Positions 994 through 19,587 of a DNA stretch of 64,000 bases are shown one piece after another (positions within the stretch are counted from its first letter, which is position 1; the number at the start of each line of letters is the position of its first letter). Source of the stretch: Natrinema salaciae (lineage in GTDB: Archaea; Halobacteriota; Halobacteria; Halobacteriales; Natrialbaceae); NCBI RefSeq assembly GCF_900110865.1, contig NZ_FOFD01000007.1, positions 62,001-126,000 of the forward strand, written 5' to 3'. A program made the translations under genes and the position numbers. The notes below the pieces were generated by a model. That model was not told the origin of the DNA and made no database searches. It saw nothing but the letters and a program-made list of their open reading frames with translations.

Positions 994-1023
994 GGGAACG
1001 GAGGACGTCGGTAGCGGAGCGGT

Positions 1024-2031
1024 TCAGAGGCCATCGGAGACCACCTCGAGGAGTCGGATCGCGACCAGTAGCAGCGCCGTCAGCAGAATGACTCGTCGGA
1101 GGATGGCCCCCCTGGTCGTGCGGATTCGCGACCGATCCGTGGGGTGGAAGCCGACGGTCCACAGGGTCGCGATCGCGCCGACGTTGATCGCGATCACGTT
1201 GACCGCGACGACGACGAGCGAGCCGAGGACGGCCGCGGGTTCGGCCCAGGCGACGCCGACGCCGACGACGCCGATCGGCGGCATGATCGCGGCCGCGATC
1301 ATCACCCCGATGAGGTCCGTGATGCCGGTCGTCGCCATGCCGAGTCCCGCGGCGATCCCCGAGCAGACCGCGACGGTCACGAGCAGCGACGGCGGCAAGC
1401 CGTGGCTGCCGAGCCCGAGGCTCGCCTCGAGATCGACGGCGGCCGTGATGACCGTCGAGGTCTGCGCGAACGCCGCGAACGCGAGGGCGCTCGCCATCGC
1501 GACGCCGATCCCGACGAGCTGGAGTTTGACGCCGCGGACGAACAGCCGGCGCTCGTCGAGCACCGTCGCGGCGCTCGAGGCCATCGCCGGCCCCAGCAGG
1601 GGTGCGATCACCATCGCGCCGACCAGGACCGCGAGCGAATCGAGCAGGACGCCGGTGGTGGCGACGATGCCGCTGATCGCGGTCATCGCGGCGAAGATGA
1701 CGAGCGAGGGTAACTGCGACTGGGCCTTCGATCGGAGCTCGCTCCGCGAGATGCGCTTGAACGAGAGCCACTCTCGTCGCCGGGCGGAGTCGTCCCAGTC
1801 GCTGCCGACGATCGCCATCGGCTCTTCGACGACGACGGTGACGTCGCCAGCGACCGTCGCCAGATCGTCTTCGAGCGGTTCGACCGCGTGTGCGGGCGCA
1901 GGGACGGTGATCGTCCGACACTCGCCGTCCGTGTGGTCGGTGAGGCTGTACTCGAGGTCGTGGCGCTCGATGACCGCCGTAACCTCGTCGACGCTCGACT
2001 GTGAGGACGCGAGCACCGTCAACAGGCGCAT
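1024..2031 (-). CDS. DUF389 family membrane protein
   Basis: This 335-residue protein matches the DUF389 (TIGR00341) family. The N-terminal 125 residues or so form a small alpha/beta domain of the kind that precedes the membrane part. After an amphipathic segment with the words FKRISRSELRSKAQ come about six hydrophobic helices, including the conserved stretch VGAMVIAPLLGPAM and the later IAAAIMPPIGVVGVG. ATG at 2031 begins MRLLTVL and is preferred over upstream in-frame codons, which would add an Arg-rich, non-halophilic leader. DUF389 proteins have no settled biochemical role; an ion or small-solute transport function has been suggested from topology. The downstream membrane gene is 30 bases away, suggesting one operon. 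Confidence 0.9.
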   Translation of the reverse strand: MRLLTVLASSQSSVDEVTAVIERHDLEYSLTDHTDGECRTITVPAPAHAVEPLEDDLATVAGDVTVVVEEPMAIVGSDWDDSARRREWLSFKRISRSELRSKAQSQLPSLVIFAAMTAISGIVATTGVLLDSLAVLVGAMVIAPLLGPAMASSAATVLDERRLFVRGVKLQLVGIGVAMASALAFAAFAQTSTVITAAVDLEASLGLGSHGLPPSLLVTVAVCSGIAAGLGMATTGITDLIGVMIAAAIMPPIGVVGVGVAWAEPAAVLGSLVVVAVNVIAINVGAIATLWTVGFHPTDRSRIRTTRGAILRRVILLTALLLVAIRLLEVVSDGL

Positions 2032-2081
2032 GTTCGACGTTTCCGTGAGGGAGGTGGACCGTCCGTATCCGTCGCGGTCCG

Positions 2082-2648
2082 TCACAGTAGCGTGAGCGCA
2101 TCGGTAGCTGGGTCCGGATCGTCGGGGAACGTTCGAGCGAACAGCGAACAAACGGTCTCCCGAATCGTCTCGAGCCGATCGTCTCGGCCGCTGCGACACG
2201 AGTTTCCACAGCGGCCGACGGGTCCGTCGGCCGCTGAGACGTACGTCAACCGGCCGCCGCAGTCGGGACACCGCGGCTCCGCGTGGGCTCGCATCCACTC
2301 GACGTCGAACCCGTCACGGGCGAGTCGTTCGCCGAGAGCGTACCAGACGATGACGTCGCGTTCCTGACGGCCCGTCGCCGCTCGTTTGAGGCGGGTGAGC
2401 GAGAGTGCGGCGCGACAGTAGAGGCCGTCGTTCGGATCGGCGTGCCGGCGGTGACACCGCCGGAAGTAGGTCGCAAGGGCACGCCTCGAAGACCGACGCT
2501 TCCCCGTGGTGAGCGGACCGTCGAGCGCCGCGTTCGGCGAGAGGTCGTCGGCCTGGGGAACGCGTTCCGGGCGGCCGCGTTCGTCGTAGTGAACCTCTCG
2601 CGAGAGAGATGCACCGCTGGTCGGACAGAATGCGTGTTTTCCAATCAT
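2082..2648 (-). CDS. Conserved hypothetical protein with zinc-ribbon-like Cys pairs
   Basis: This 188-residue protein is not one I can assign to a named family. Two Cys pairs stand out. PRCPDCGGRLTYV near residues 128-140 is a typical treble-clef or zinc-ribbon first knuckle, and CGNSC about 16 residues later can complete the site. A further Cys lies near the N-terminus in HAFCPTSG. The central part is rich in Arg and Ala and predicted helical, with LYCRAALSLTRLKRAA. The first ATG (2648) is used. The stop lies 50 bases before the DUF389 start, so the gene may head the same minus-strand transcription unit. A nucleic-acid-binding or protein-binding role is only a guess from the zinc ribbon. Confidence 0.7.
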   Translation of the reverse strand: MIGKHAFCPTSGASLSREVHYDERGRPERVPQADDLSPNAALDGPLTTGKRRSSRRALATYFRRCHRRHADPNDGLYCRAALSLTRLKRAATGRQERDVIVWYALGERLARDGFDVEWMRAHAEPRCPDCGGRLTYVSAADGPVGRCGNSCRSGRDDRLETIRETVCSLFARTFPDDPDPATDALTLL

Positions 2649-3452: not shown

Positions 3453-5054
3453 ATGATCTCCTGGCTCGACAGCACAGCCGCTGCTCTCCGACCGATCGCT
3501 GCGGTCGGACTCCTCGCTTCCTTCGGCCCGTCGGATCGCCGCCTCTCCACCATGCTCTCAGCGTTCCACTCACTCACTGACGCGTCAAGCCTCGCGCTCG
3601 CACAGGGACGACCCGTCGCCTCGCTGGCGGTCGCGATGATCGAGCACGGACGGGGTCGCCCGGCCCTGACGCTCGGACTGCTACCCGGCCCCCCCGTCGC
3701 CCCGAACGGCGGCGGACTCGATCTCGCGGCGCGGCTCGCGGGTGCGCTCGGCGCGTTCTTGCTGGCCGTCGTCGAGGGAGCGATCATCGCGTTCGAGATG
3801 GCCTGGGAGACCTGGTGGGCGCTCGTGCTCGGCTTTACGATCACCGGCGCGGTTCAGGAGTTCGTCTCCGAGGACCGGCTGACCGACTACCTCGGCGACG
3901 ACGGCTGGCGGGAGATCGGCTACGGAGCGCTGTTCGGCGCGTCCTCCTCGAGCTGTTCGTTCTCCGCGGTGGCGACGACCCGATCACTGTTCACGAAGGG
4001 TGCCTCGGCCGCGTCCAGTCTGGGTGCGTTCCAGTTCGCGAGTACGGATCTCGTACTCGAACTCGCGCTCGTCGTGACGCTCCTGCTCGGCTGGCAGTTC
4101 GCCGCCGCGGAGATCGTCGGCGGGCTCGTCGCGGTCGCCGTCCTCGGGGTCTTCTACCGGCGCTTCGTCCCCGAGTCCTGGATCGAGCGAGCGCGGGCCC
4201 GCGCCCGGGGGCTCGAGGACACGGAGTGTGCCACCTGCGGGATGGCCGCGAGTCCGACCGACGCGGACACGATCGAACGGACGGTCGACGGCGAACGACA
4301 GTACTTCTGCTGTTCCGGCTGCGCTAACGCGTACGATCCGGCGACCGACCGGGACGCGGTCACTGCCGGTCCGGAACTCCTCTCGGCCGACCGCTGGCGA
4401 TCGGCGACCGCGAACGCCGTCCGCGAGTGGGATATGCTCTGGCGAGACATCGCCCTGGGGTTTCTCATCGCGGGACTGCTGGCCGCGCTCGTCCCCACGT
4501 CGTGGTGGACCGCCCTCTTCGGTGTCGGTGCCGAGGGGAGTCTCACGCGGCTCGGCTCGAACGTCGTCATCGGTGCCGTGGTCGGGGTGTTGACGTTCCT
4601 CTGTTCCGTCGGTAACGTCCCCTTCGCGCTCGTCCTCTGGGAGAACGGCGTCTCCTTCGGCGGCGTCCTCGCGTTCATCTTCGCGGACCTGCTGATCCTG
4701 CCGCTGGTCCGCACCTACCGCCGGTACTACGGGACCCGCATGGCCGCCGTCGTCTCCGTCGCGTTCTTCGTCGCGGCGATCACCGCCGGCGCGGTCGTCG
4801 AACTCCTCTTCGGCGGACTCGGTCTCATCCCGCCCGCCGGCGAGGCCGGTGGCACGATCTCCGGGACGTTCACGACGCTCTTCAACGTCGTCGCCATCCC
4901 GATCCTCGCGGTACAGGTCTACGTCGCCCTCGAGCCCCACCAGCGCGTCCGGATCGGCAACCGACTCGCGCCCCACGTCGCCGGCGTCATCTATCACGCC
5001 CACAAGGCCCTCGAGCGGCTCGCCTACGCGCTCGAGGACCGCGGGCTGAAGTGA
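3453..5054 (+). CDS. Permease of the DUF318/YraQ type with an internal TRASH-like Cys module
   Basis: This 533-residue protein belongs to the COG0701 permease family: two homologous membrane halves, each with GFT/GAV-rich helices and a conserved polar turn (SSSSCSFSAVATTRSLF in the first half, TFLCSVGNVPFALVLWENG in the second). Between the halves, about residues 255-295, sits a soluble module CATCGM ... FCCSGC with Cys at 259, 262, 286, 287 and 290. This is a TRASH/YHS-like metal-binding pattern. Family members include metalloid and metal exporters such as ArsP, so a metal or metalloid substrate is likely but unproven. The first 95 residues or so are poorly conserved in appearance, and ATGs at 3552 or 3636 are possible later starts. 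It lies just before the MFS/oxidase pair, which hints at metal supply. Confidence 0.85.
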   Translation: MISWLDSTAAALRPIAAVGLLASFGPSDRRLSTMLSAFHSLTDASSLALAQGRPVASLAVAMIEHGRGRPALTLGLLPGPPVAPNGGGLDLAARLAGALGAFLLAVVEGAIIAFEMAWETWWALVLGFTITGAVQEFVSEDRLTDYLGDDGWREIGYGALFGASSSSCSFSAVATTRSLFTKGASAASSLGAFQFASTDLVLELALVVTLLLGWQFAAAEIVGGLVAVAVLGVFYRRFVPESWIERARARARGLEDTECATCGMAASPTDADTIERTVDGERQYFCCSGCANAYDPATDRDAVTAGPELLSADRWRSATANAVREWDMLWRDIALGFLIAGLLAALVPTSWWTALFGVGAEGSLTRLGSNVVIGAVVGVLTFLCSVGNVPFALVLWENGVSFGGVLAFIFADLLILPLVRTYRRYYGTRMAAVVSVAFFVAAITAGAVVELLFGGLGLIPPAGEAGGTISGTFTTLFNVVAIPILAVQVYVALEPHQRVRIGNRLAPHVAGVIYHAHKALERLAYALEDRGLK

Positions 5055-5220: not shown

Positions 5221-6600
5221 ATGACACCACAACCGATACCCGGCACCGAACGGAGCGATCCGGTCCAGCTCGTCTGTCTCGTCGCCCTCGTGGCGACCCA
5301 CGGAACGATCCGCCTGGCCGAACGATATCTGCCCGAGTTCGTCTCCGCGCTCGGCTACGGGCCGGTCGTCGTCGGCTCGCTGGTAACCCTCGGACTCGGC
5401 GTCGCCGTCGCCGCGTCCGAACGCTCGAGCGAGGCGACGGGCGACGACTCGTCCACCGGTCTCGAAACGACCGTGGTCGCCGTGCTGTCCGCGGCGCTCG
5501 CGGCGATCGGCCTGTTTGCCTGGGCGGGGGCACCCACGCTCGATACGCTGCTGGGCACCCCGCTATCAGCGCTCGGCTGGCTCACCGTCGGCGTCGTGCT
5601 CCTCCAGGCGTGGCACGTCGCCGGCCCCGCACGCGACCTGTGGCCCGTCGATACGCGGGTCTCGACCGGACTCACCAGCGCGGACGCCGTCGGGGACGAC
5701 GATGTCGACAGTTCGTCGCCCCGGCGGACGATCGGCCTCGACCGTCGAACGCGGATCGTCGTCGGTGCGCTCGGCGTCGCCGCCGCGGCGGTGTTGGCGA
5801 CGGCGGCCGTCGCCAGCGTCGGCGGTATCGGTGCCGGCTTCGCGCTCCTGGCGGCGACCGGCGCTGCGGTCGCCCTCGTCGGTGCAGTCGCGCTCGGAGC
5901 CGTTCGCGACCGACCGCGCCTGCTCGGCGATCGTCCGCGACGCGACGGACCGGCGGACGACTCGGTCCCCGAACCGGACCCGTCGCTCACGGTCGTCCGA
6001 CGCGCGGTCTCGCAGTTGCCCGACCGTCGGCGATGGGCGGTCATCGGCGACGCGCTCGTCCGGGTCGCGATCGCGGGGATCACGCCGTTCCTGATCCTCC
6101 TGGTCGTCGAGTACCGACCGATCGCGCTCTCGGTCGGCGGCCTCTCGCTCGCGCCGGCTGCGGTCTTCGGCCTGTTCGTCCTCGTCGAGGCCGTCGGCGC
6201 GATCGCCGGCGCGGTCTCGTTCCCCGTGCTCGCATCGCGCGTCGATCGCCGGGCGCTGCTCGCCGTCGGGCTCGCGGCGCTCTCGCTGGTCCCGATGGCG
6301 CTCGTCGCGGCCCCGGCCAGGGCGGGCGTCGTCGCCGCCCTGTTCGCGCTGCTTGGCTTCCGTACCGCGATCGAGCCGCTCCGGCCGACCGTCGGCGCGA
6401 GCGCTCGAGCCGCGCCGGTCCCCGGCCCCGCGCTCCCCGACGAGATCCGGACGGCGGTCCGGATCGCCGTCGTTCCGGCGCCGCTGCTCGGCGGGCTCCT
6501 GTACGCGATCGATCCGCTCGTGGCCGTTACCGCCGCGACGACGCTCGGCCTGCTCGGCGTCCGCGAACTGGGTCGCGCGTTCACCTGGGACCGGCAATGA
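5221..6600 (+). CDS. MFS-like membrane transporter, coupled to the oxidase gene
   Basis: The protein has 459 residues with roughly ten to twelve hydrophobic segments in two bundles, separated by a charged loop near 220-260 (RDRPRLLGDRPRRDGPADD). The fold resembles a divergent major facilitator protein. The usual MFS signature between helices 2 and 3 is not clear, so the assignment rests on topology. Its TGA at 6598-6600 overlaps the ATG of the heme-copper oxidase subunit (ATGA at 6597-6600), which implies translational coupling. In bacteria an MFS protein, CcoA, supplies copper to cbb3-type oxidase. A similar role here is an attractive inference, but no Met/His copper motif is obvious. Confidence 0.75.
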   Translation: MTPQPIPGTERSDPVQLVCLVALVATHGTIRLAERYLPEFVSALGYGPVVVGSLVTLGLGVAVAASERSSEATGDDSSTGLETTVVAVLSAALAAIGLFAWAGAPTLDTLLGTPLSALGWLTVGVVLLQAWHVAGPARDLWPVDTRVSTGLTSADAVGDDDVDSSSPRRTIGLDRRTRIVVGALGVAAAAVLATAAVASVGGIGAGFALLAATGAAVALVGAVALGAVRDRPRLLGDRPRRDGPADDSVPEPDPSLTVVRRAVSQLPDRRRWAVIGDALVRVAIAGITPFLILLVVEYRPIALSVGGLSLAPAAVFGLFVLVEAVGAIAGAVSFPVLASRVDRRALLAVGLAALSLVPMALVAAPARAGVVAALFALLGFRTAIEPLRPTVGASARAAPVPGPALPDEIRTAVRIAVVPAPLLGGLLYAIDPLVAVTAATTLGLLGVRELGRAFTWDRQ

Positions 6601-8138
6601 CGCGGTCTTCCACGCCGCGGCGCGCGCTCGGGGGGGCTGGCGGCTCGCTCGCGGGTCTCTCGCAGGTCGATCACCGGCGGCTCGCTCGCTGGCACCTCGC
6701 GTTCGCGCTGGTGATGGGGCTGTGGGGCGGGCTGGACGCCCTGTTCCTGCGAACGGCGCTCGTCACGCCGAGCCTGGACCGCTGGACGGCCGAGACCTAC
6801 AACGCCTTCTTCACGACCCACGGGCTGACGATGCTGTTCCTGTTCGCGTTGCCCGCGATCTGGGGGTTCGCGTACGCCGCGGTTCCCCCGTCGATCGAGG
6901 CAGACGGGATCGCACACCCTTGGCTCGGCGTCTGGGCGTTCTGGCTGCAGGTGCCCGCGGCGCTCGCGATCCGGGCCGGCACCGTCGGCGGGATCCTCGG
7001 CGTGGCCGGCCTCGAGCCGGTCTCGAGCGGCTGGACGCTGTACTCGCCGTTGAGCGTCCTGTCGCAGAACCCCGCCGTCGACAGCGTCCTCGTCGGTCTC
7101 CTGCTCGTCTCGGTCGGAACCGCGGCGACGGCGTGGACCCTCGTCGTCACGATCCGGCGGCGACGCGAGATCCGGTGGCTCGACGTCGACACGTTCACCT
7201 GGACGGTGCTGACCGCGGGCGCGATGTCGCTGGTCGCCTTCCCGGTACTCGCCGTCGCGGTCGCACTGTTGCTCGCCGACCGGACGCTCGGCACGGCGTT
7301 CCTCGTCGGCGGTGGCGGACCGCTGCTCTGGCAACACCTGTTCTGGTTCTTCGCGCACCCGCTGGTGTACGTGCTGGTGTTACCCCCGATGGGGATCGTC
7401 GGCCACGTCCTCCCGCGGTTCGCCGGGCGGCGGCTGTTCGGCCGCCGGTCGTCGGTGTACTCGACGCTCGCGATCGGCGTCGTCTCGTTCACCGTCTGGG
7501 CACACCACATGTTCGTGACCGGTGTCGGCCCGTCCGTTCGGACCGTCTTCATGATCACGACGCTGGCGGTGGCCCTGCCGAGCTCGGCGAAGCTCTGTAC
7601 GTGGCTCGTGACACTGTGGGGCGGCTCGATCCGGTACACCGCCCCCATGCTCGCGGTGCTGGCCGCCGTCGGCTTCTTCCTCGTCGGCGGCGTCACCGGC
7701 GTCTTCCTCGCCGTCGTCCCGATCAACGTCCGGTACACCGGGACCTACTACGTCGTCGCGCACTTCCACCTGCTGCTCGCCGGCTTCGTCGGGCTCGCCC
7801 TCGTCGCCGGCACCTACTACTGGTTCCCCCTGCTCACCGGCCGACGGCTCGAGCCCGGGCTCGCTCGCCTGCACTGCTGGCTCACGATCGTCGGCGTGGC
7901 GGTGACCTTCGGCGCGTTGCTGCTCGTCGGGCTCGCCCAGCTTCCGCGGCGCGTCGCGACGTATCCCGCGGCATACGCTCCGCTACACCAGCTCGCGACC
8001 GTCGGCGCGTACGTCATCGCCGCCGGCCAACTCGTCTTCCTCCTGAACCTCGGTCGGTCGCTGTGGGTCGGCGATCCCGCTCCCGACGATCCGTGGGCGC
8101 TCGAGGACGGCCCGTCGCACACGCGCGAATGGCGGTAG
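6597..8138 (+). CDS. Heme-copper oxidase subunit I homologue (orphan)
   Basis: This 513-residue membrane protein carries the full ligand set of a cytochrome oxidase subunit I: low-spin heme His75 in THGLTM, CuB His254 with cross-link Tyr258 in HPLVY, CuB His303-His304 in WAHHMF, and His389/His391 in AHFHLLL for the two hemes. Lys332 (SSAKLCTW) matches the K-channel lysine. The D-channel glutamate normally in HPEVY is Leu256, and there is no YS motif in its place. The ATG at 6597 overlaps the stop of the MFS gene. No subunit II, subunit III or Cu-A gene is nearby, so it either uses a partner encoded elsewhere or a dedicated electron donor. It reduces O2 in the membrane if functional. Confidence 0.88.
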   Translation: MTRSSTPRRALGGAGGSLAGLSQVDHRRLARWHLAFALVMGLWGGLDALFLRTALVTPSLDRWTAETYNAFFTTHGLTMLFLFALPAIWGFAYAAVPPSIEADGIAHPWLGVWAFWLQVPAALAIRAGTVGGILGVAGLEPVSSGWTLYSPLSVLSQNPAVDSVLVGLLLVSVGTAATAWTLVVTIRRRREIRWLDVDTFTWTVLTAGAMSLVAFPVLAVAVALLLADRTLGTAFLVGGGGPLLWQHLFWFFAHPLVYVLVLPPMGIVGHVLPRFAGRRLFGRRSSVYSTLAIGVVSFTVWAHHMFVTGVGPSVRTVFMITTLAVALPSSAKLCTWLVTLWGGSIRYTAPMLAVLAAVGFFLVGGVTGVFLAVVPINVRYTGTYYVVAHFHLLLAGFVGLALVAGTYYWFPLLTGRRLEPGLARLHCWLTIVGVAVTFGALLLVGLAQLPRRVATYPAAYAPLHQLATVGAYVIAAGQLVFLLNLGRSLWVGDPAPDDPWALEDGPSHTREWR

Positions 8139-8762: not shown

Positions 8763-9149
8763 ATGTCCAATCACACACCCACGAACACCAACGACGATGA
8801 CGAATCGACCCCTGAGAGTGACGAACAGGATGGCCACGACGTTTCGGATCCTCGTCCGCTGACGAACCTGACCGGGTTCAAACGCGATCAGCTGTTCGTC
8901 ATCCGAAAGCTCGCGGACCGCAACCCCCACGGCCTCGTCATCAAAGACAAGCTGGACTGCTACTACGACGAGGAGATTACCCAGGGGCGGCTCTACCAGA
9001 ACCTGGCCGAACTCATCGAGGAGGGGTACGTCGAGAAACACCCCCTCGACGGCCGAACCAACGCGTACCGGCCGAGTTCCCGCGCCAACGAGCGCCTCGA
9101 GGAGCACTACGAGTGGGAGCGACGCTGTCTCTTTTGCGACCGTCGATGA
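8763..9149 (+). CDS. PadR/PhiH1-repressor-like winged-helix regulator
   Basis: This 128-residue protein has an acidic, disordered first 30 residues followed by a winged helix: LTGFKRDQLFVIRKLADRNPHGLVIKDKL, the recognition segment ITQGRLYQNLAELIEEGYVEKHPLDGRTNAYRPSSRA and a basic, helical end. The pattern GRLYxNLxxLxxxGxVxK with DGRTNxY in the wing is typical of the haloarchaeal PadR group related to the PhiH1 phage repressor. The C-terminus ends with a Cys pair (RRCLFCDRR). Such proteins bind DNA as dimers; the target here is unknown. The nearest plausible targets are its own promoter or the GDH-like operon that starts 160 bases downstream. Confidence 0.85.
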   Translation: MSNHTPTNTNDDDESTPESDEQDGHDVSDPRPLTNLTGFKRDQLFVIRKLADRNPHGLVIKDKLDCYYDEEITQGRLYQNLAELIEEGYVEKHPLDGRTNAYRPSSRANERLEEHYEWERRCLFCDRR

Positions 9150-9308: not shown

Positions 9309-10589
9309 ATGACGATACACACAGATTCCGCCAGCGACGAACGTAGTCGAACAGCACCCGATCTCGATGCCCCGTGGACGTACGCGGCGACCGCCGCACA
9401 GCGGCTCTCGCTTCCCGACGGGATCGAGCAGCGACTCATGTATCCGGATCACCGCCAGCGGATTTCGGTGCAGTTCGAACGCGACGACGGCACGCTCGGC
9501 GTCTGCGACGGCTACCGGGTCCGCCACGATGGCGTTCGCGGCCCGTACGTCGGGCCGCACCGGTACACCGACGCGCTGACCGGTGACGACTGCGCCGGAC
9601 TCGCGGCCGCGACGACCGTCAGCGCCGCGCTCGCGGGAATTCCGTTCGGCGGCGCAGCGGGCGGCGTCGCGGTCGATCCGACGGCGCTCTCGCGGGACGA
9701 GCGTGTCCGACTCACCAAATCGTACGCGGCCGCCGTCGCCGGCGTCGGCCCCCACAGCGACGTCCTCGTGCCGGACATCGGGACCGACGAGCGCACGATG
9801 GCGCAGTTCGCCGACGCCGTCGTCGACCGCGTCGACGGCCCCCACGACGCGACCGTCGCCGGCAAACCACCGGCCCTCGGCGGGTTCCGAGAGATCTCCC
9901 GGGCGGACGGCCGGAGCGTCGCCAGCGTGACCCAGGACGTCCTCGAGACCGACCACGACCGGCCGCTGTCCGGTGCGACGATCGCCGTCTACGGCACCGG
10001 CCACCGCGGCGCGACCGCCGCCCGCCTGCTCGAGTTCCGGGGCGGCACCGTCGTCGCGATGTGCAGCGACCGAGCGGGACTGACCGCACCGGACGAGACC
10101 GGGCTGGATACGGACCTCGCTCCCAGCTATCTCCAGCGGCCGGCGACGCTCGCCGAGTACGACGACGGGACGATAGTCGGCACCCGTGACGTCCTCGAGC
10201 GGAACGTCGACGTGCTGGTTCTCGCGGCACCCGCCACCACGGTGACCGCCGCGAACGCGGACACGGTCCGTGCCGACGTCGTCGTCGAAGGTGCCACCGG
10301 AAGCGTGACCCCCGGCGGCCAGCGCGCCCTCGAGGACCGCGGTATCGCGGTCGTTCCCGACGTGCTGGCGACGGTCGGGACGATGGTCGCGGCCCGCCTC
10401 GAGTGGGTCCGGACGGCCGGTCGCGACCGACTGAGCGAAGCGCGCGTGGCGAACGAGTTCGGCTACGCGCTCACCGACGCGGTCGACGACGTGCGAGACC
10501 GCCGGCAGCGGTGCGACCTGAGCTGGCGGGAAGCCGCCTACAGTGTCGGTCTCTCGCGCGTCGCGGCGGCCCACGAGGTGGTGCGATGA
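9309..10589 (+). CDS. Glutamate-dehydrogenase-like protein lacking substrate lysines
   Basis: The protein has 426 residues and the full two-domain layout of Glu/Leu/Phe/Val dehydrogenases, including a Rossmann segment IAVYGTGHRGATAARLL. The three lysines that bind glutamate are all changed. The motif GPYKGG reads GPYVGP (Val81), the helix lysine in TWK is Ser105, and PFGGAKGG reads PFGGAAGG (Ala117). Asp156 of the catalytic loop (VPDIGTD) and the GKPPALGG segment remain. True oxidative deamination of glutamate is therefore unlikely; a regulatory, binding or altered-substrate role is more plausible. The stop overlaps the ATG of the beta-propeller gene, so the two proteins probably act together. 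Confidence 0.85.
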   Translation: MTIHTDSASDERSRTAPDLDAPWTYAATAAQRLSLPDGIEQRLMYPDHRQRISVQFERDDGTLGVCDGYRVRHDGVRGPYVGPHRYTDALTGDDCAGLAAATTVSAALAGIPFGGAAGGVAVDPTALSRDERVRLTKSYAAAVAGVGPHSDVLVPDIGTDERTMAQFADAVVDRVDGPHDATVAGKPPALGGFREISRADGRSVASVTQDVLETDHDRPLSGATIAVYGTGHRGATAARLLEFRGGTVVAMCSDRAGLTAPDETGLDTDLAPSYLQRPATLAEYDDGTIVGTRDVLERNVDVLVLAAPATTVTAANADTVRADVVVEGATGSVTPGGQRALEDRGIAVVPDVLATVGTMVAARLEWVRTAGRDRLSEARVANEFGYALTDAVDDVRDRRQRCDLSWREAAYSVGLSRVAAAHEVVR

Positions 10590-11833
10590 TCGACCGGGTC
10601 GGCGAGTCGGTGACGGACGCGGTCGACTGGCTCCAGCGCGTCGGCCCGGCGACGGGGGACGCTGACGACGAATCCGAGGGGAGCGGCGACGGCAGACGGC
10701 GGGCAGCCGACGGGGCCGTGACCGACGACGGCGCTGGGATCGACGGCTGGGAGGCGGTCGAGTCGCCCACGTCGCGGACCCTCCACGGCGTCGTCCACGG
10801 CCAGGACGGCCCCTACGCCTGCGGCGAAGGCGGGCTCTTGCTCCACCGGACCCCCGACGGGTGGCGCACGCTCCTCGAGCGCGGTCCGGGCGTCGCGGAC
10901 AACACCCTCCGAGCCGTCGCCGCGACCGACGACGGCTGCCGGCTCTGGTTCGCCGGGGACAGCGGGGCGCTCGGGTTCTACGACGTTGCCGACGGTCACC
11001 TCAGCGACTACTCCGCGCCGATGGAGAAGACGAGCACCTGGGAGGCGATCGCCGTCACCGGGACCACCGGCGACGAGCGGGTTCGGGTCGCGAACGGCTC
11101 CGGCGAAGTCCTCGAGTGTCTCGTCGCGGACGGCTGTCCGGTCTGGGGCGACGTGGTCAAACCCGGCGGCGGATCGACGATCCCCGGCCTGACGGCGGGC
11201 CCGGATGGGTTCTACGCCGTCGACACCAGCGGCGGCGCCTACTACGAGGCCCGAGACCCCGAGTCGGCCGCGGTCGACGACGAACCGACGACCGACCAGT
11301 CGGCCGACGGCGAACCCGGGGACGGCGATTCGACGACTCCCGAATCCGAACCGGGGGACTCGAGTACCGCCGATCCGAGGGACGGCGACCCGGCGGACAC
11401 CGAGCCGACGGCGGACGAGTCGGCCGACGGCTGGGAGCGGATCGGCGTCCGAAACGCGCAGGTCGACTTCCAGGACGTCTGGGCCGGCGACGACTCCGTG
11501 TTCATCGCCGGTGCCGACGGCATCGCCTACCGGTACGACCCCCGCTGCGAGAACTGGACGCCGCTCCACGTCGGAGCGGGTGCCCTGCAGGCGATCCGCT
11601 CGGTCGGGACGGACGCCGTCGCGGTCGCGACCGGGGGCCGGATCTACGAACGCGACGCGAGCGTCCGCTGGACCGCACTCGAGGTCCCGACCGAACAGTC
11701 GCTCCACGACCTCGCGCTCGCCCGCTCGAGTGCCGACGTCGACGGCGGGCTGGCGACCGTCTCCGTCGACGTCGCCGTCGGTGCCGGCGGGACCATCCTC
11801 GAGCGCGATCGGCGGGACCGCTCGAGCGACTGA
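10586..11833 (+). CDS. Beta-propeller-like protein coupled to the GDH-like gene
   Basis: A 415-residue, cytosolic, highly acidic protein with repeated blade-like units ending in G-x-hydrophobic strands: LHGVVHGQDGPYACGEGGLL, AVAATDDGCRLWFAGDSGAL, GLTAGPDGFYAVDTSGGAYY, VWAGDDSVFIAGADGIAYRY, AIRSVGTDAVAVATGGRIY and VAVGAGGTILERD. The pattern suits a six- or seven-bladed propeller of the YCF48/BNR type. A low-complexity Asp/Glu/Ser/Pro linker at about 230-280 interrupts the propeller. The start ATG at 10586 lies inside the GDH-like gene's end (ATGA overlap), implying coupled translation and perhaps a complex. No signal peptide or enzyme motif is present. The function is unknown; a scaffolding role for the GDH-like partner is inferred. 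Confidence 0.78.
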   Translation: MIDRVGESVTDAVDWLQRVGPATGDADDESEGSGDGRRRAADGAVTDDGAGIDGWEAVESPTSRTLHGVVHGQDGPYACGEGGLLLHRTPDGWRTLLERGPGVADNTLRAVAATDDGCRLWFAGDSGALGFYDVADGHLSDYSAPMEKTSTWEAIAVTGTTGDERVRVANGSGEVLECLVADGCPVWGDVVKPGGGSTIPGLTAGPDGFYAVDTSGGAYYEARDPESAAVDDEPTTDQSADGEPGDGDSTTPESEPGDSSTADPRDGDPADTEPTADESADGWERIGVRNAQVDFQDVWAGDDSVFIAGADGIAYRYDPRCENWTPLHVGAGALQAIRSVGTDAVAVATGGRIYERDASVRWTALEVPTEQSLHDLALARSSADVDGGLATVSVDVAVGAGGTILERDRRDRSSD

Positions 11834-11887: not shown

Positions 11888-11923
11888 GAACTGCGGTACC
11901 GAAGGACTAGAGCGGTGTGGCAA

Positions 11924-13318: not shown

Positions 13319-16300
13319 CTATCGATCGTCCGCGAGCGCCTCGGCGACGACCTCGATCGGCGTCGGCGGCTCCTCGCTCGCGCCGGGTCGATCGCCGAGT
13401 TGCGTTCGACAGGACGCGCCGGGGGCGACGACGCGGTCGCCCTCGCTGTCGTCGACCTGCTCGTACAGCACCTCACCGATCGCCTTGCTCATCGAGTAGT
13501 GCTCAGCCTCGTAGCCGAAGCTCCCGGCCATCCCGCAGCAACTCGAATCGAGCGGGTCCACGGCGTACCCCGCCCGGCGAAGGACACCGACGGCGTGGTG
13601 GTCCTTCGCGTGGGCCTTCTGGTGACAGTGGCCGTGGTAGACGAGGTGGTCGCCGGGCGCGTCGAACTCGATCCCGGCATCGAGGTCGAACCGATCGACG
13701 TACTCGCAGACCCCGTAGGCGTTCTCGGCGACGCGATCGACGTCGCTCCCCGAGAGCAGATCTCCGTAGTCCGACTGGAGCATGACCGCGTCCGACGGTT
13801 CGATCAGGATCACGTCCCAGCCGTCGTCGACGAGCGGCGCGAGTCCGTCGACGGTTTCGCTGGCCTTCTCGGCCGCCAGGTCGAGCATTCCCTTCGAGAA
13901 CGCCGGACGGCCGACATCCCGCGGCGTGGCGACCCGAACGTGAACGCCGGCAGCTTCGAGGACGGCCAGCGCCGCCTCGCCGGCCGCCGGGTACTCGTGG
14001 TTGGTGTAGACGTCCGGCACCAACACGGCGCGACGGGCCGCTTCGTCCGCCGGGACGGCGGGGTCGCGATCGGCCACCCGCTTCGCGAAGGTCCGCCGCT
14101 CGAACGTCGGGAGATCACGTTCACTGGAGATCCCGAGCAGTTTCTCAGAGAGGAGGCCCGTCCCGGGGAGACTCGCGACCCAGTTCGAAACGGGCGCGGT
14201 CGCGGACCCGAGTTTCGCCAACGTCTCGAAGTTCGCGAAGAGCCGGTCGCGCAGCGAGACGCCGTTTCGTTCGTGGTACTCGTGGGACACTTCGGCTTTC
14301 AGCTTCGCCATATCGACGCCACTGGGGCAGTCGTGCTTGCAACCCTTGCAGCCGATACAGAGGTCGAGCACCTCCTCGACGAACTCGTCGTCGAACTGCG
14401 CCTCGCGATCCAGTTCGCCGCTCATCGCCTGCCTGAGCATGTTCGCGCGGCCGCGAGTCGAGAGTACCTCCTCGTGGCTCGCCCGGAACGTGGGGCACAT
14501 CACGCCGCCGGTAGTGGACTGCTCGCCGCGACAGCCGCCGCAGCCGTGACAGAGCTCGGCCATCCCCTGAAACCCGTTTTCGTCCTCCCACTCGAGGACG
14601 GGATCGAAGCCCGCGTCGAACTCGTACGCCGGTCCGAACCGGTGGTTCTCCGTCATGTCGGTCGGGTCGTCGTCGCGGAAGACGACCTGGCCCGGGTTCA
14701 GGAGCCAGTCGGGATCGAACGCCGTTTTCAACTCCCGGAAGATCTCCCACACCTCCTCCCCGTAGAGCTTGCGGTTCCACTGGGTGCGCGCGCGGCCGTC
14801 GCCGTGCTCGCCCGAGACCGAGCCGTCGTACTCGACGACGAGGTCGGTGACGGCGTCGGCGATCGACGCCATGTCCTCGAGTCCAGCCGCCGTCTTCGTG
14901 TTCACGAGCGGCCGAATGTGGAGGACGCCGGGACCGGCGTGGGCGTAGAAGCTGGCGTAGGTGTCGTGATCCTCGAGGATCGCCTGGAAGTGGACGACGA
15001 ACGCCCGGAGGTTTTCCGGCGGGATGCCGGTGTCCTCGATGAACGCGACGTGTTTCTCGTCGGTCGTCCGCGAGAGCAGGATCGGGAGCCCGGACTTGCG
15101 GAGCTTCCAGATCTTCGACTGGCTCGCCTCGTCGTAGGCTTCGATCGCGTCGAACGCGAGCGCGTCCGCGCCGGTGATCGGTCGCTCGGCCTCGTCGTCG
15201 ACGTCGCCCTCGGGATCGACGGTCGGGCACCGATCGGCGAGCAGGTTGGCGACCTGTCGTTCGCCGTCGGCGACGTCCTCGGCGTAAAACTCGACGATCA
15301 ACACGGCAGCCGTCCCCGCCGGAAGGAGTTCGGTGGTGGACGCGAACTCGGACGTGTTCCGTGCGAGGTCGAGCATCACGTCGTCGATCACCTCGACCGC
15401 GGCCGGGTCGTGCTCGACGATCCCCTCGACGTCGTCCATCGCGTCGAGTACCGACTCGTACGCCAGCAAGGCCATGCTCTTCTCAGCGGGGACGGGTTCG
15501 AGCGACACCGTCGCCTCGGTGACGATCGCGAGGGTCCCTTCGCTGCCACAGAGGAGCTTCGCGAGGTTGATCGAACCGCCCTCGGCGTCGGGTTCGCCGA
15601 TCCCGCGCTCGACACCCCTGGCGTCTTCGACCAGCCAGTCCAGGTTGTACCCCGAGACGTTGCGCTTGAGGTCGGGGTAGGCCTCCTCGATCAGGTCGCC
15701 CCGTTCGTCGAGGATCCGGGCGACCTCGGCGTAGATCGCCGACTCGAGGTCGTCTCCGTCGGCGAGTTCGGGGAGGGCCTCGAGGTCGACCTCACCGAAG
15801 GTCGTGACGGTGCCGTCCGCGAGGACGACCTCGCACGACTCGACGTAGGCGTCGGTCTTGCCGTACTCGAGGGAGTGTGCGCCGGTCGAGTTGTTGCCGA
15901 TCGCCCCACCGAGCGCGCTCTTGTCGCCCCAGGCGGGGTCCGGCGCGAACTTCAACCCGTGGGGCTCGAGCGCCTCGTTGAGCGTCCCGAGGTAGATCCC
16001 CGACTGGGCGGTCGCCCGCCGGTGGTCAGGATCGACCTCGACGACGCCGTCCATGTGCGTCGTGAAGTCGAGGACGACGGCCTCGTTGACGGTCTGGCCG
16101 GCGAGGCTCGTCCCGCCGCCGCGGGGCAACACCGGAATCTCCCGCTCGGCGCAGTACTCGACGACAGCGGCGACGTCCGCGGTCGATCGCGGAAAGACGA
16201 CCCCGATCGGCGTCACCTCGTAGATGCTCGCGTCGGTCGCGTACAGCTGCCGCGAGTACGAGTCCGCGCGGACTTCGCCGGCGATCCGCCGGTCGAGGTC

Positions 16301-16447
16301 GGCGACCAGCGTCGGTCGGTCGACGTCGTCGCTGCGGTAGTCGTAGTTCGCCTGCGGATCGAGTGCAGGGTCCCGGTCGGTCGTCGGTCGATCGGACGAC
16401 CCGATCGGACCGGTCGAATCCGTCGAATTGGGTGAATCAGTTGCCAT
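13319..16447 (-). CDS. FAD-linked oxidase fused to Fe-S/CCG module (D-lactate dehydrogenase-like)
   Basis: A 1042-residue fusion. Residues 45-290 form an FAD-binding type-4 domain (VLPRGGGTSLAGQTV near 107-120, then GGAIGNNSTGAHSLEYGKTD). The FAD-oxidase C-terminal domain follows, with HAGPGVLHIRPLVN and GSVSGEHGDGRAR. Then come two 4Fe-4S sites, CHGCGGC...CP and CIGCKGCKHDCP. The end is a pair of CCG-type cysteine-rich units with CHQKAHAK and SSCCGMAGSFGY. This layout matches DLD-type D-lactate or glycolate dehydrogenases joined to GlpC-like electron carriers. It should oxidise a 2-hydroxyacid at the membrane and pass electrons to the respiratory chain. It lies 57 bases downstream of an LctP permease gene in the same direction, so lactate is the best substrate guess. 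Confidence 0.9.
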   Translation of the reverse strand: MATDSPNSTDSTGPIGSSDRPTTDRDPALDPQANYDYRSDDVDRPTLVADLDRRIAGEVRADSYSRQLYATDASIYEVTPIGVVFPRSTADVAAVVEYCAEREIPVLPRGGGTSLAGQTVNEAVVLDFTTHMDGVVEVDPDHRRATAQSGIYLGTLNEALEPHGLKFAPDPAWGDKSALGGAIGNNSTGAHSLEYGKTDAYVESCEVVLADGTVTTFGEVDLEALPELADGDDLESAIYAEVARILDERGDLIEEAYPDLKRNVSGYNLDWLVEDARGVERGIGEPDAEGGSINLAKLLCGSEGTLAIVTEATVSLEPVPAEKSMALLAYESVLDAMDDVEGIVEHDPAAVEVIDDVMLDLARNTSEFASTTELLPAGTAAVLIVEFYAEDVADGERQVANLLADRCPTVDPEGDVDDEAERPITGADALAFDAIEAYDEASQSKIWKLRKSGLPILLSRTTDEKHVAFIEDTGIPPENLRAFVVHFQAILEDHDTYASFYAHAGPGVLHIRPLVNTKTAAGLEDMASIADAVTDLVVEYDGSVSGEHGDGRARTQWNRKLYGEEVWEIFRELKTAFDPDWLLNPGQVVFRDDDPTDMTENHRFGPAYEFDAGFDPVLEWEDENGFQGMAELCHGCGGCRGEQSTTGGVMCPTFRASHEEVLSTRGRANMLRQAMSGELDREAQFDDEFVEEVLDLCIGCKGCKHDCPSGVDMAKLKAEVSHEYHERNGVSLRDRLFANFETLAKLGSATAPVSNWVASLPGTGLLSEKLLGISSERDLPTFERRTFAKRVADRDPAVPADEAARRAVLVPDVYTNHEYPAAGEAALAVLEAAGVHVRVATPRDVGRPAFSKGMLDLAAEKASETVDGLAPLVDDGWDVILIEPSDAVMLQSDYGDLLSGSDVDRVAENAYGVCEYVDRFDLDAGIEFDAPGDHLVYHGHCHQKAHAKDHHAVGVLRRAGYAVDPLDSSCCGMAGSFGYEAEHYSMSKAIGEVLYEQVDDSEGDRVVAPGASCRTQLGDRPGASEEPPTPIEVVAEALADDR

Positions 16448-16504
16448 GTGCTGTTTCTGCGGTAGGTCTGCGTTTGTCGAACGGTACGGTCGCGTTCTCG
16501 GCCA

Positions 16505-18286
16505 TCAGAACACATCCGGGAAGAGCACGTAGGTGAACAGGAGCGCCCAGAGGCCGACGAACACGGTGTAGTAGAGTAGCGGAATGAGATTGAGCCGGAT
16601 CACGCGACCCTCCTCGCCGATGAGGTCGACGGTCGCGAGCGCGGCGACGACGTTGTGGATCGCCACGAGGTTGCCGATCGCGCCGCCGACGGCCTGCGCG
16701 CCGACGATCAGTTCCCGTGAGAGGCCGAGGCGCTCGGCCGCCACGAACTGGAACGGGCCGAACGTGATGTTCGAGACGGTGTTCGACCCGACGAGCGCGG
16801 CGCCGAGCGCGCCGATGAACGCGGCGACCATCGGGTAGGCGGGTCCGACCACGTTCGCCGTCGCTGTACCGAGGACGACGATCATGCTCTCGGTCCCCTC
16901 GGCGTGTGAGCCGGACTGGAGCATCACCTGTGCCATCGCAAGCACGAACACCAGCGCGATCAGCGGCGAGATCAGTTTCGAGGTCGCGCCGCCCCACGCC
17001 TCCGCGACTTGCCGGCGATTCATATCGAAGAGGCTGACCGCTGCGATCGCACTCACCAGCAGCCAGGTGCCGGGAACGTAAATGAAGTTGACGCCGGTTC
17101 CGAGACCGGTCCCGAGGACGTTCGCCCACTCGAAGAGGAACAGGCCGACGGTAAATTCGCCGACCTCTGTCGCGATCGTCCCCACCACGAGCGACACCTG
17201 CCGCCCGAAAAGCGACACCTGTTCCCCGCGAAGCAGGGCCGGGAAGGGGTCGAAGACGCGGGTGAACATCAGCAACACGACCAGCAGAACGTACGGAGAC
17301 CAGGCGCGCGCAAGCGAGATGTCGTGGGTTCCGGCCAGCACGCTCCTGGCGTCCGTCGGCTGGATCGACCCGGTCCAGTGATCGGGCCACTCGTCCTGGT
17401 CCGGAAAGGTCCACTTCTCGTCGGGGAGGAAGTATCCCGCACGGAGCGCGGCGATCGTGATCGCCGCACCGACCATCGATCCCACCAGCGACGGGAACTC
17501 GGCGCTGATGTACCACGCCGACAGCCAGTACGGGACCACGAACGCCAGGCCGGCGAACAGGCAGAGCGGCCAGACCGCGAGCGCCGGTCCGATCGATCGG
17601 TCCTCGGGATCGCCGAAGAAGTAGACGATCATCCCGACGACGAACAGTGGCATCACGAACCCGACCAGCGCGTGGTACGTCGCGGCCCACGCGGCAACGT
17701 TGACCGCGAACTCGCTCGGCGTCAGCCCGCCGGATTCGATCGCCGACTCGATTCCGGAGACGCTCGCCATCGGCTCCCTGATACCCACGATGATCGGCGT
17801 CCCGACCGCACCGTAGGTGACCGCGATGATGTGACCGATCAGCGCGGCGACGACTGCGGCCAGCGCGGGGAAGCCGAGGCCGAGCAGCAGCGGCGCGACG
17901 ACCGCGGCCGGCGCCCCGAAGCCGGCCGCACCCTCGATGAACGTCGAAAGGAAGAACGCGATCAGGACGATCTGGACGCGGCGGTCCTCGCTGATCATCG
18001 CGAACCCGGCGTTGAGCACGTCGAACGCCCCCGCTCGAAGCATCGTGTACAACAGGACGAGCGCCCCGAAGACGATGAAGAGGATCTGGACGGCGATCAC
18101 CGTCCCCTCGATGGTCGCCGCGACCAACCACCTGACGGGCATCCCCCAGCCGAAGGCGGCGACGGCGAGCGCCGAGAGCCAGGCGATCGGCATCGCGCGC
18201 GTGGCTGGCCAGAGGAACCCGACGAGCAGAACGCTGACGACGATCAGCGGAACCGCCGCGAGGACGACTTCGATCAGCTCGGTCAT
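16505..18286 (-). CDS. lctP: L-lactate permease family (LctP), copy 1
   Basis: The 593-residue integral membrane protein aligns end to end with the LctP family. It has the segments [44 protein letters not shown] and, near the end, [26 protein letters not shown], which are the family's most conserved stretches. Twelve to fourteen helices are expected. It would bring in lactate, and perhaps glycolate, with H+ or Na+. The ATG at 18286 (MTELIEVVL) aligns with the start of the second copy; a GTG at 18310 is the longer option. The FAD/Fe-S dehydrogenase follows in the same direction. The winged-helix regulator at 18629 is divergent, with a shared 342-base control region. Confidence 0.93.
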   Translation of the reverse strand: MTELIEVVLAAVPLIVVSVLLVGFLWPATRAMPIAWLSALAVAAFGWGMPVRWLVAATIEGTVIAVQILFIVFGALVLLYTMLRAGAFDVLNAGFAMISEDRRVQIVLIAFFLSTFIEGAAGFGAPAAVVAPLLLGLGFPALAAVVAALIGHIIAVTYGAVGTPIIVGIREPMASVSGIESAIESGGLTPSEFAVNVAAWAATYHALVGFVMPLFVVGMIVYFFGDPEDRSIGPALAVWPLCLFAGLAFVVPYWLSAWYISAEFPSLVGSMVGAAITIAALRAGYFLPDEKWTFPDQDEWPDHWTGSIQPTDARSVLAGTHDISLARAWSPYVLLVVLLMFTRVFDPFPALLRGEQVSLFGRQVSLVVGTIATEVGEFTVGLFLFEWANVLGTGLGTGVNFIYVPGTWLLVSAIAAVSLFDMNRRQVAEAWGGATSKLISPLIALVFVLAMAQVMLQSGSHAEGTESMIVVLGTATANVVGPAYPMVAAFIGALGAALVGSNTVSNITFGPFQFVAAERLGLSRELIVGAQAVGGAIGNLVAIHNVVAALATVDLIGEEGRVIRLNLIPLLYYTVFVGLWALLFTYVLFPDVF

Positions 18287-18628
18287 CGACGCCACCTCTC
18301 CCCCGTCCACGAGTACCGTCGCGAACAGATCATGTCATGGATTGCCATGTGTAGATTGTTGATTTATAGCTATCGGACCGAGTAACCGTCTCGCGGGGGT
18401 TCCCGCTCGGCTGACACGGGACGGCCGGCGAATGTCTCCCATCCGCGTCCGCTGTGAGTTCTCGATCCGCGAATCCCCGGACCGGCTCGCCTGCCGATCG
18501 CGGCGCGCGCCGAAATCGGCGCTCGATTCGTCCCGTCGAACGCGCTCGAGCGGCGGCTTCCGACCGGTCTCCGGGCCAAATTCAGAGAAATGTAAAGGCA
18601 TATCCGAACGTGTGTGCTGATTTCTCGC
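18287..18628. promoter_or_regulatory. Divergent control region, lctP copy 1 and winged-helix regulator
   Basis: This 342-base gap between two divergent genes holds no convincing gene. A minus-strand TATA element, TATAAATC, lies at 18361-18368 and would start the lctP transcript with a leader of about 50 bases. The regulator's side has ACGTGTGTGCTGA (18609-18621), which resembles, weakly, the repeats upstream of lutC. Autoregulation by the regulator is a plausible inference. Confidence 0.5.
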
Positions 18629-19234
18629 ATGAGCGACGATCGTGAGCGAAACGGCCACGGTCAGTACGCGGATCGGATCCCGCCGGAGGCCGCCCTCGAG
18701 GCGTTCGACGAACGGGAGGATCTCGGCCGACCGCTGACGGCGGACGACGTCATGGCACACCTGGACTGCTCGCGGCGGACCGCACACAACAAACTCAACG
18801 ACCTCGTCGAGGAGGGAGCGCTCGAGACGCGCAAGATCGGCGCTCGCGGCCGGGTCTGGTGGGTGCCGATCGAGGCCGGCCCGGATCAGGACTCCCGGCA
18901 GACGGCGGTTCGAACCGAGGAGGAGACGCCGCCGCCCGCGGTCCGGGAGGCGATGACGGCGGTCGACCTCCCCGGCACGGGTGCGATGCTCGAGGCCCGC
19001 CGGAAGGCCCTCCTCGCGTCTTACGAGTATCTCATCGATCACCCGAGCGCCAGGAAGTCCGACTTCCTCGAGAACGTCTACCCGGACCACTCCGCGGGGT
19101 TCGAAACGGACGAGGGCTGGTGGAACGCGATCCAGCCTGCGCTGAAGGAGTTGCCGGGCGTCGACCCGCCGGAAGAGCGCGGCCACATCTGGAACTTCCT
19201 CGGGAGCGATCGGTTCACGCCGACGCTCGGGTGA
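18629..19234 (+). CDS. Winged-helix transcriptional regulator of the lactate island
   Basis: The 201-residue protein starts at ATG 18629 (MSDDRERNG); the GTG/ATG 15 bases earlier is less likely. Residues 15-75 form a winged helix: RPLTADDVMAHLDCSRRTAHNKLNDLVEEGALETRKIGARGRVWWV, with the recognition helix around SRRTAHNKL. The C-terminal part, about 105-200, is an uncharacterised domain seen in haloarchaeal regulators, with ARRKALLASYEYLIDHPSARKSDFLENVYPDHSAGF and a Trp-rich end. It is placed between two lctP genes and divergent from one of them, so it probably senses lactate or a related acid and controls uptake. The effector is unknown. Confidence 0.82.
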   Translation: MSDDRERNGHGQYADRIPPEAALEAFDEREDLGRPLTADDVMAHLDCSRRTAHNKLNDLVEEGALETRKIGARGRVWWVPIEAGPDQDSRQTAVRTEEETPPPAVREAMTAVDLPGTGAMLEARRKALLASYEYLIDHPSARKSDFLENVYPDHSAGFETDEGWWNAIQPALKELPGVDPPEERGHIWNFLGSDRFTPTLG

Positions 19235-19259
19235 GACCGATCCTCGTAGCATCATCTCG

Positions 19260-19526
19260 TTATTCATGGGTTCGGATTCGGACGCGCCCTGCGTTCGTCA
19301 TGATTACTCGATACCCGTCGACCGAGAACGAAACGACGAGGTCCCCGTCGCCGGAGCCGTCCGCGAGGAGCGCGTCGAGCGCCTCGGGATCGACGTAGTC
19401 GTAGAGCGTGAATTCGAGTTCGTCGACCACGGCGTTCGGATCTTCGAGCGTCCGGAGTCCGTCGACGAGGGCGACGCTGGCCGGCCGTTCGTCGTCGTAC
19501 CGCAGTTCGAGTGTTGTTACGTCCAT
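19260..19526 (-). CDS. Stand-alone HalOD1 output-domain protein
   Basis: An 88-residue acidic protein that is almost entirely one HalOD1 domain. It has the typical hydrophobic opening VALVDGLRTLEDPNAVVDELEFTLYDYVDPEALDALL, an acidic Gly-rich loop, and the final strands LVVSFSVDGYRVIMTNAGRVRIR. HalOD1 domains are common C-terminal output parts of haloarchaeal signalling proteins and also exist alone; their partners are unknown. The gene follows lctP copy 2 by 61 bases in the same direction and converges on the winged-helix regulator. A role in tuning the lactate system is inferred from position only. Confidence 0.75.
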   Translation of the reverse strand: MDVTTLELRYDDERPASVALVDGLRTLEDPNAVVDELEFTLYDYVDPEALDALLADGSGDGDLVVSFSVDGYRVIMTNAGRVRIRTHE

Positions 19527-19587
19527 CTGATTCGTGACGTCTCGTGTCGGGTCGATCGTTATCGAAGCGCAACGCCCGTTCCCGACC

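Follow-up and report, generated by a model that had tools for sequence, protein, structure and literature searches.

Haloarchaea of the family Natrialbaceae encode a conserved protein, here termed GDHX, that belongs by sequence to the glutamate dehydrogenase (GDH) family and lacks the residues of the GDH active site. We propose, with moderate confidence, that GDHX is a pseudoenzyme derived from an ordinary haloarchaeal GDH, and that it now acts as a non-catalytic cytosolic partner that helps to assemble or regulate an oxidase/permease module encoded in the same gene cluster. The window analyzed here, 64,000 nucleotides of the Natrinema salaciae genome, contains one such cluster (Table 1). A sequence-only reading had covered the last two genes of this cluster and proposed a catalytically dead GDH coupled to a beta-propeller protein; active-site residues, dN/dS values and the overlap of the two genes support this proposal, and point to a protein kept by selection. 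The upstream genes and five further substitutions (Ser362Ala, Gly83Pro, Arg196Ile, Asn355Thr and Asn330Thr) had been missed.

Table 1. Features of the GDHX cluster in the window, with positions counted from its first nucleotide
Feature	Position	Strand	Basis
ArsP_1-type permease, weak TRASH-like metal-site matches	3453..5054	+	PF03773 1.5e-65; weak CuZn efflux SO_0444
MFS-like membrane protein, named by appearance	5221..6600	+	no Pfam or NCBIfam match
COX1, aa3-type heme-copper oxidase subunit I, no subunit II adjoining	6597..8138	+	PF00115 7e-120; CtaD 488 bits (cut-off 671)
COX1 Leu256 codon, D-channel Glu in oxidases (HPEVY -> HPLVY)	7362..7364	+	alignment
Small membrane protein (SMP), 108 aa	8351..8677	+	membrane nature judged from sequence
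PadR-type regulator	8763..9149	+	PF03551; at equivalent place in 23/23 other GDHX loci
GDHX, predicted GDH-fold protein without GDH active site, 426 aa	9309..10589	+	PF02812, PF00208, paralog alignment
Val81 codon, first substrate lysine of GDHs (RGPYKGG -> RGPYVGP)	9549..9551	+	paralog alignment; hydrophobic in 23/23 GDHX
Ser105 codon, second lysine of GDHs (MTWK -> TTVS)	9621..9623	+	alignment; K in 0/23 GDHX
Ala117 codon, catalytic lysine of GDHs (GG[AG]KGG -> GGAAGG)	9657..9659	+	alignment; Ala in 23/23 GDHX
Asp156 codon, catalytic-loop Asp, not conserved across GDHX	9774..9776	+	D13 G6 E3 N1
Cytosolic beta-propeller, 415 aa: N-terminal helix, acidic linker, propeller	10586..11833	+	partial AF2 model, Foldseek, overlap

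GDHX is a conserved protein of Natrialbaceae

GDHX spans both GDH domains over its whole length, scoring 106.5 bits (E 1e-30) against Pfam PF02812 (cut-off 25.3) and 119.1 bits (3e-34) against PF00208 (cut-off 23.4), and with both domains above their cut-offs it can be assigned by predicted fold to the ELFV dehydrogenase superfamily. It matches 56 GDH sequences in the PDB, including both chains of 3AOE. The closest family model is NCBIfam NF041398, haloarchaeal GdhB, with 334.9 bits over residues 27-424; this score lies far below the curated cut-off of 620, and the three lysines are missing from GDHX. The window genome encodes four ordinary GDH paralogs besides GDHX. An AlphaFold2 model of GDHX built on three sequences reached a pLDDT of 39, too poor for use, and a PADLOC search with three proteins gave no match. 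The Natrinema zhouii copy carries the database name 'Glu/Leu/Phe/Val dehydrogenase dimerization domain-containing protein', and a metabolic model that read this annotation as a GDH would be wrong.

The protein is not an oddity of a single genome. Within Natrinema, GDHX occurs in 11 of 29 genomes (the window's own counted) at 74-100% identity, with the next GDH matches at 44% or below, and across Natrialbaceae it is found at E 1e-100 in 23 of 125 genomes from seven genera; all genomes come from one collection, the thresholds were set once the matches were known, and the sequences are not independent of one another. Under strict cut-offs, COX1 and the propeller are each found in 25 of the 125 genomes, the identical 25 in both cases, and all of these loci hold a GDH-fold protein without the three lysines. 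The two genomes beyond the 23, G145 and G061, each have a GDH-like gene at the cluster. That of G145 is a GDHX at 49%, in which the three lysines and the catalytic-loop Asp are absent and the Gly loop is broken; that of G061 is more distant, with Leu, Gln and Met in place of the lysines and Gly in place of the Asp, and retains the active-site Arg and Ser equivalents. At the level of the order (n=392), COX1 (at least 68%) and GDHX co-occur in the same 16 genomes, and a phylum sample (n=294) yielded no further GDHX at E 1e-92.

The GDH active site is replaced in GDHX

The earlier reading reported Val81, Ser105 and Ala117 in place of the GDH lysines in the open reading frame at 9309-10589, and our alignments bear this out. 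Lysine occupies all three positions in the four own-genome paralogs and in every one of 59 further haloarchaeal GDHs (a set of 63 including repeats, less the cluster GDH L144, the repeats L176 and L177, and the window genome's own paralog L001), and is absent from all three in 23 of 23 GDHX proteins and in the G145 and G061 copies. Across the 23, position 81 is L12 V6 I3 M1 A1, position 105 is S16 T4 G1 R1 A1, and position 117 is Ala without exception. The window copy contains two lysines in total, and because Lys186 alone is conserved across GDHX (23/23), the three missing lysines have no substitute; the reconstitution of a lysine from another position, which the same reading had named as evidence against its proposal, is ruled out.

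Further pocket positions, chosen by C. symbiosum GDH numbering, are replaced as well. The presumed Ser380 equivalent (Ser362Ala) is Ala and the Gly91 equivalent (Gly83Pro) is Pro in 23/23 GDHX, the Arg205 equivalent (Arg196Ile in the window) is I14 L3 F3 M2 V1, and Asn330 and Asn355 are replaced (Asn330Thr, Asn355Thr). Among 160 positions invariant in ordinary GDHs, 46 are unchanged and invariant in GDHX. We infer that GDHX has no GDH activity.

The nucleotide fold and the catalytic-loop Asp had been described as kept. This holds for the window copy, which has Asp156 and a complete GxGxxG motif, but not across GDHX, where Asp is found in 13 of 23 proteins (G in six, E in three, N in one) and the middle Gly in 14 (S5 A2 E1 T1 in the others), with the last Gly in 21. 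In the GDHX alignment, 14 pocket positions have a mean entropy of 1.07 bits versus an average of 0.80 (at or above the value of 93.6% of random sets), and the nucleotide loop has an entropy of 1.35 (at or above 98% of random sets). These results are modest; the pocket and nucleotide loop are more variable than GDHX as a whole, which makes it less likely that a site for glutamate or NAD(P)H has been conserved. They do not favor the earlier suggestion of a sensor for glutamate or NAD(P)H state, in which GDHX would retain ligand binding and signal to the propeller. The Asp and Gly motif of the window copy and the coupled propeller would suit such a sensor; however, the Lys, Arg and Ser residues of the substrate site are gone, and a conserved ligand would be expected to hold the Asp and the middle Gly at more than the frequencies given above, with the Gly motif broken in at least nine of 23 proteins and both features lost in G145. 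We regard this role as very unlikely.

GDHX might instead be an enzyme whose old cleft has taken on another reaction or ligand. Several cleft positions have been replaced and then frozen in 23/23 GDHX (G83P, K117A, S362A, W101A and N292T), and the first three of these would leave room for a new ligand; a new His84 is near-invariant, occurring in 22 of 23 aligned rows and in G145. Against this, the pocket and the nucleotide loop both vary above the average, and we see no conserved acid/base set that obviously substitutes for the lost one, which together make a new enzyme quite unlikely.

GDHX is under purifying selection and overlaps the propeller gene

Purifying selection acts on GDHX, with dN/dS values (Nei-Gojobori) of 0.08-0.27 over 11 genome pairs compared to 0.09-0.18 for ordinary GDH (7 pairs), 0.08-0.30 for COX1 (11 pairs) and 0.17-0.34 for the propeller (11 pairs); the far pair G000/G084 gives 0.46 for GDHX. 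The GDHX copies are free of internal stops. The overlap of the GDHX stop with the start of the next gene is exactly as first described (ATGA at 10586-10589, with the propeller start within the GDHX stop), and a 4-nt overlap, ATGA or GTGA, links GDHX to a propeller open reading frame of 362-466 aa in 23 of 23 loci, a count outside which G145 lies. Both the gene pair and the loss of the three lysines, whose conservation the sequence-only reading had proposed to check in other genomes, are conserved.

The dN/dS values, the open frames and the exact overlap rule out a pseudogene. More broadly, a decaying gene carried along by its neighbors would be consistent with the loss of nearly all substrate residues, and with most genome pairs evolving somewhat faster than ordinary GDH; given dN/dS well below 1, frames that are all open, the overlap in all 23 loci and a GDH-fold protein in 25 of 25 clusters, we assign this explanation almost no probability.

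GDHX belongs to a conserved gene cluster with two types of propeller

The order ArsP_1 permease, MFS-like protein, COX1, 108-aa protein, PadR, GDHX and propeller is shared by 22 other loci and G145; at locus L077 the propeller was unreported by tblastn, yet is present. A PpoB2-type gene (PF09948) lies downstream of the propeller in 16 of 22 loci and in G145, and in the window no PpoB2-type gene was called between the propeller and a symporter. The latter, an SDF symporter (PF00375) at 11915, is the glutamate-type symporter of the earlier reading; it is present as described but its link to the cluster is not supported, the gene being complete in one (G022) and fragmentary in two of 23 other GDHX loci, and we ruled it out as a cluster member. 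The conserved neighborhood extends leftward from the cluster and ends on that side with a second propeller, a protein of unknown type (cl9) and a DUF389 protein, which lie in window positions 1-2298 and in the part of the contig immediately before the window (L081).

That the partner of GDHX is a beta-propeller is supported by a partial AlphaFold2 model, which has beta strands at fair confidence across approximately residues 56-222, and by Foldseek, which matches this model to beta-propellers and places Ycf48/HCF136 at rank 2 with ~12% identity. No signal sequence was seen on the GDHX-coupled propeller, and the window's copy gave no match to PF14870 (YCF48) at E up to 1. In G010, the start of the cluster's second propeller is lipobox-like, and this protein scores 32.8 bits against PF14870 (cut-off 27).

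In its evolution GDHX follows the cluster in its entirety, the propeller no more than other members: a particular link sought by distance correlation gave no special signal, with r values against GDHX of 0.97 for the MFS-like protein, 0.95 for COX1 and 0.91 for the propeller (partial correlations of 0.52, 0.27 and 0.25). The N-terminal helix of the propeller was considered as a docking element for GDHX and ruled out, as such helices also occur in GDH-less clusters. In G145 (L184, about 9716-9900), the linker of the cytosolic propeller is cysteine-rich and metal-binding in appearance. The window genome also encodes a large family of related propellers, with 13 matching stretches (for example L080, L082, L083 and L084), some of which have Tat-like starts.

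The oxidase subunit of most GDHX clusters has lost the presumed D-channel Glu

All 24 GDHX clusters and all 21 distant ones encode a COX1 that retains the heme and copper ligands and the Tyr. A regular-expression scan had suggested that copper ligands were lost; alignment ruled this out, with all ligands intact and Glu alone lost. This Glu, in the motif HPEVY, is presumably the D-channel proton donor, and its position is L in 22, Q in one and E in one of the 24 GDHX clusters, versus E in all 21 distant clusters including G061. A crude pattern search for a subunit II motif in the 24 loci found none. COX1 has changed too, apparently after the GDH lost catalysis, as G061 pairs a dead GDH with the normal oxidase Glu. 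A tentative extension, which we hold as possible and speculative, is that the haloarchaeal module was disarmed stepwise, first in GDH catalysis and then in the COX1 Glu, and might now be a non-pumping, metal-linked apparatus for oxygen or redox sensing or assembly, with a lipoprotein propeller outside and the dead GDH and its propeller inside.

Residue-complete GDHs occupy three distant clusters

COX1 relatives at 50-56% identify more distant forms of the cluster, mostly from other families, of which 21 were retrieved (20 plus L086). Seventeen of the retrieved stretches show no GDH, and the general module can therefore do without this protein; G061 has the inactive GDH described above. In G215, G337 and G233, a GDH lies near PadR or the propeller and retains K, K, K, D and Ser. 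In G337 the end of the GDH gene overlaps the start codon of the following gene (GTGA); the G233 protein reaches 571 against NF041398 (cut-off 620). Apparent genes for cation/proton antiporters and a regulatory subunit, named by appearance, are found in distant clusters (L130, L131, L137 and L138).

GDHX, the G061 protein and the three complete cluster GDHs form a clade with a FastTree support of 0.99 among 86 sequences. In an IQ-TREE analysis (LG+F+R4) of 43 selected sequences, this common clade, which rests on long branches, has an SH-aLRT of 94.8 and a UFBoot of 88, and GDHX plus G061 receives 100/100; with the inactive sequences removed, the three complete cluster GDHs still group (99.3/100). 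Gene position offers independent support for the clade. A common origin of GDHX and the complete cluster GDHs is moderately supported by these trees and gene positions, and catalysis was probably lost inside the cluster, as complete GDHs occupy the equivalent place and share a clade with GDHX. The plain reading would be that an active GDH sat in the cluster and that a single catalytic loss preceded the spread of the Natrialbaceae versions; two independent losses, in G061 and in GDHX, would be the alternative. Metabolic enzymes whose dead copies became regulators are familiar, but a living ancestor and its dead form are not usually known to occupy one genetic seat. Here one cluster houses a GDH with all its residues in some haloarchaea and its stripped counterpart in Natrialbaceae, which makes the change from enzyme to non-enzyme traceable and testable.

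Proposed role of GDHX and comparison with known systems

In the sequence-only reading, no described system of this kind was known. This was too strong: in the nearest described case, GdhA of Thermus thermophilus is a GDH subunit that regulates without catalysis (PMC9570180), although no such case is known from the oxidase/permease cluster setting of GDHX. Thermus GdhA, part of a hetero-hexameric GDH (PDB 3AOE), resembles GDHX in being a GDH-family paralog that lacks catalysis, in the case of GDHX as judged from its residues. By description rather than by comparison of residues, the two differ in setting: GdhA is a leucine sensor within a GDH hexamer, whereas GDHX is propeller-coupled in an oxidase/permease cluster.

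This precedent raises the possibility that GDHX pairs with an active GDH of the cell in a mixed hexamer, as its regulatory subunit. Four ordinary paralogs in the same genome could supply the partner, and many structural residues persist, as the 46 unchanged positions of 160 indicate. Yet GDHX tracks the presence of the cluster and not that of ordinary GDHs, which give a match in all 47 good-quality genomes. In alignments of haloarchaeal sequences, the C-terminal G[LS]WP tail of the four own-genome paralogs is also absent in 11 of 11 Natrinema GDHX proteins, and the leucine sites of Thermus and bovine GDH use C-terminal residues (PMC9570180). Moreover, the sister cluster proteins are complete GDHs, and therefore a partner would have been unnecessary at first. 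We consider a mixed hexamer unlikely.

Two further proteins invite comparison. YwlG of Staphylococcus aureus has a GDH-like fold and is called a possible pseudoenzyme by its authors (PMC9522360); it differs from GDHX in being about half the size, 11% identical to GudB, a member of another family, and partnered with HPF. Ycf48/HCF136 is a 7-bladed propeller that acts in photosystem II assembly, where it binds a membrane redox protein at a site of metal ligands (PMC10403576). The GDHX-coupled propeller is like it in its Foldseek rank and unlike it in being cytosolic, of low identity and without a PF14870 match, whereas the lipoprotein propeller of G010 passes that model. By analogy, a Ycf48-like lipoprotein propeller in the cluster hints that a metal redox site is assembled or protected.

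The favored reading, in which GDHX is a non-catalytic partner of the module, can be laid out as a series of putative steps. An ordinary haloarchaeal GDH would have joined a membrane cluster encoding an ArsP-type permease, oxidase subunit I, PadR, and Ycf48-like and cytosolic propellers, and would have lost catalysis there, in the ancestor of the Natrialbaceae versions. GDHX would now be made together with the cytosolic propeller through the overlapping stop and start, probably as an oligomeric, cytosolic, non-catalytic partner of the cluster's membrane proteins, and as a scaffold or regulator may help to assemble or regulate the oxidase/permease module. We infer the oligomeric state, the contact with the propeller and the assembly or regulatory role. 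Our analysis also points to an oxidase/permease/propeller module for which, among the titles and abstract openings searched, mostly of literature outside subscription, we found no description, either of the cluster or of a dead haloarchaeal GDH.

Further downstream, window positions 13319-21381 encode a 1042-aa protein resembling an FAD/iron-sulphur oxidase, together with a pair of large transporters related to each other (cl11), all named by appearance; this is perhaps a lactate locus.
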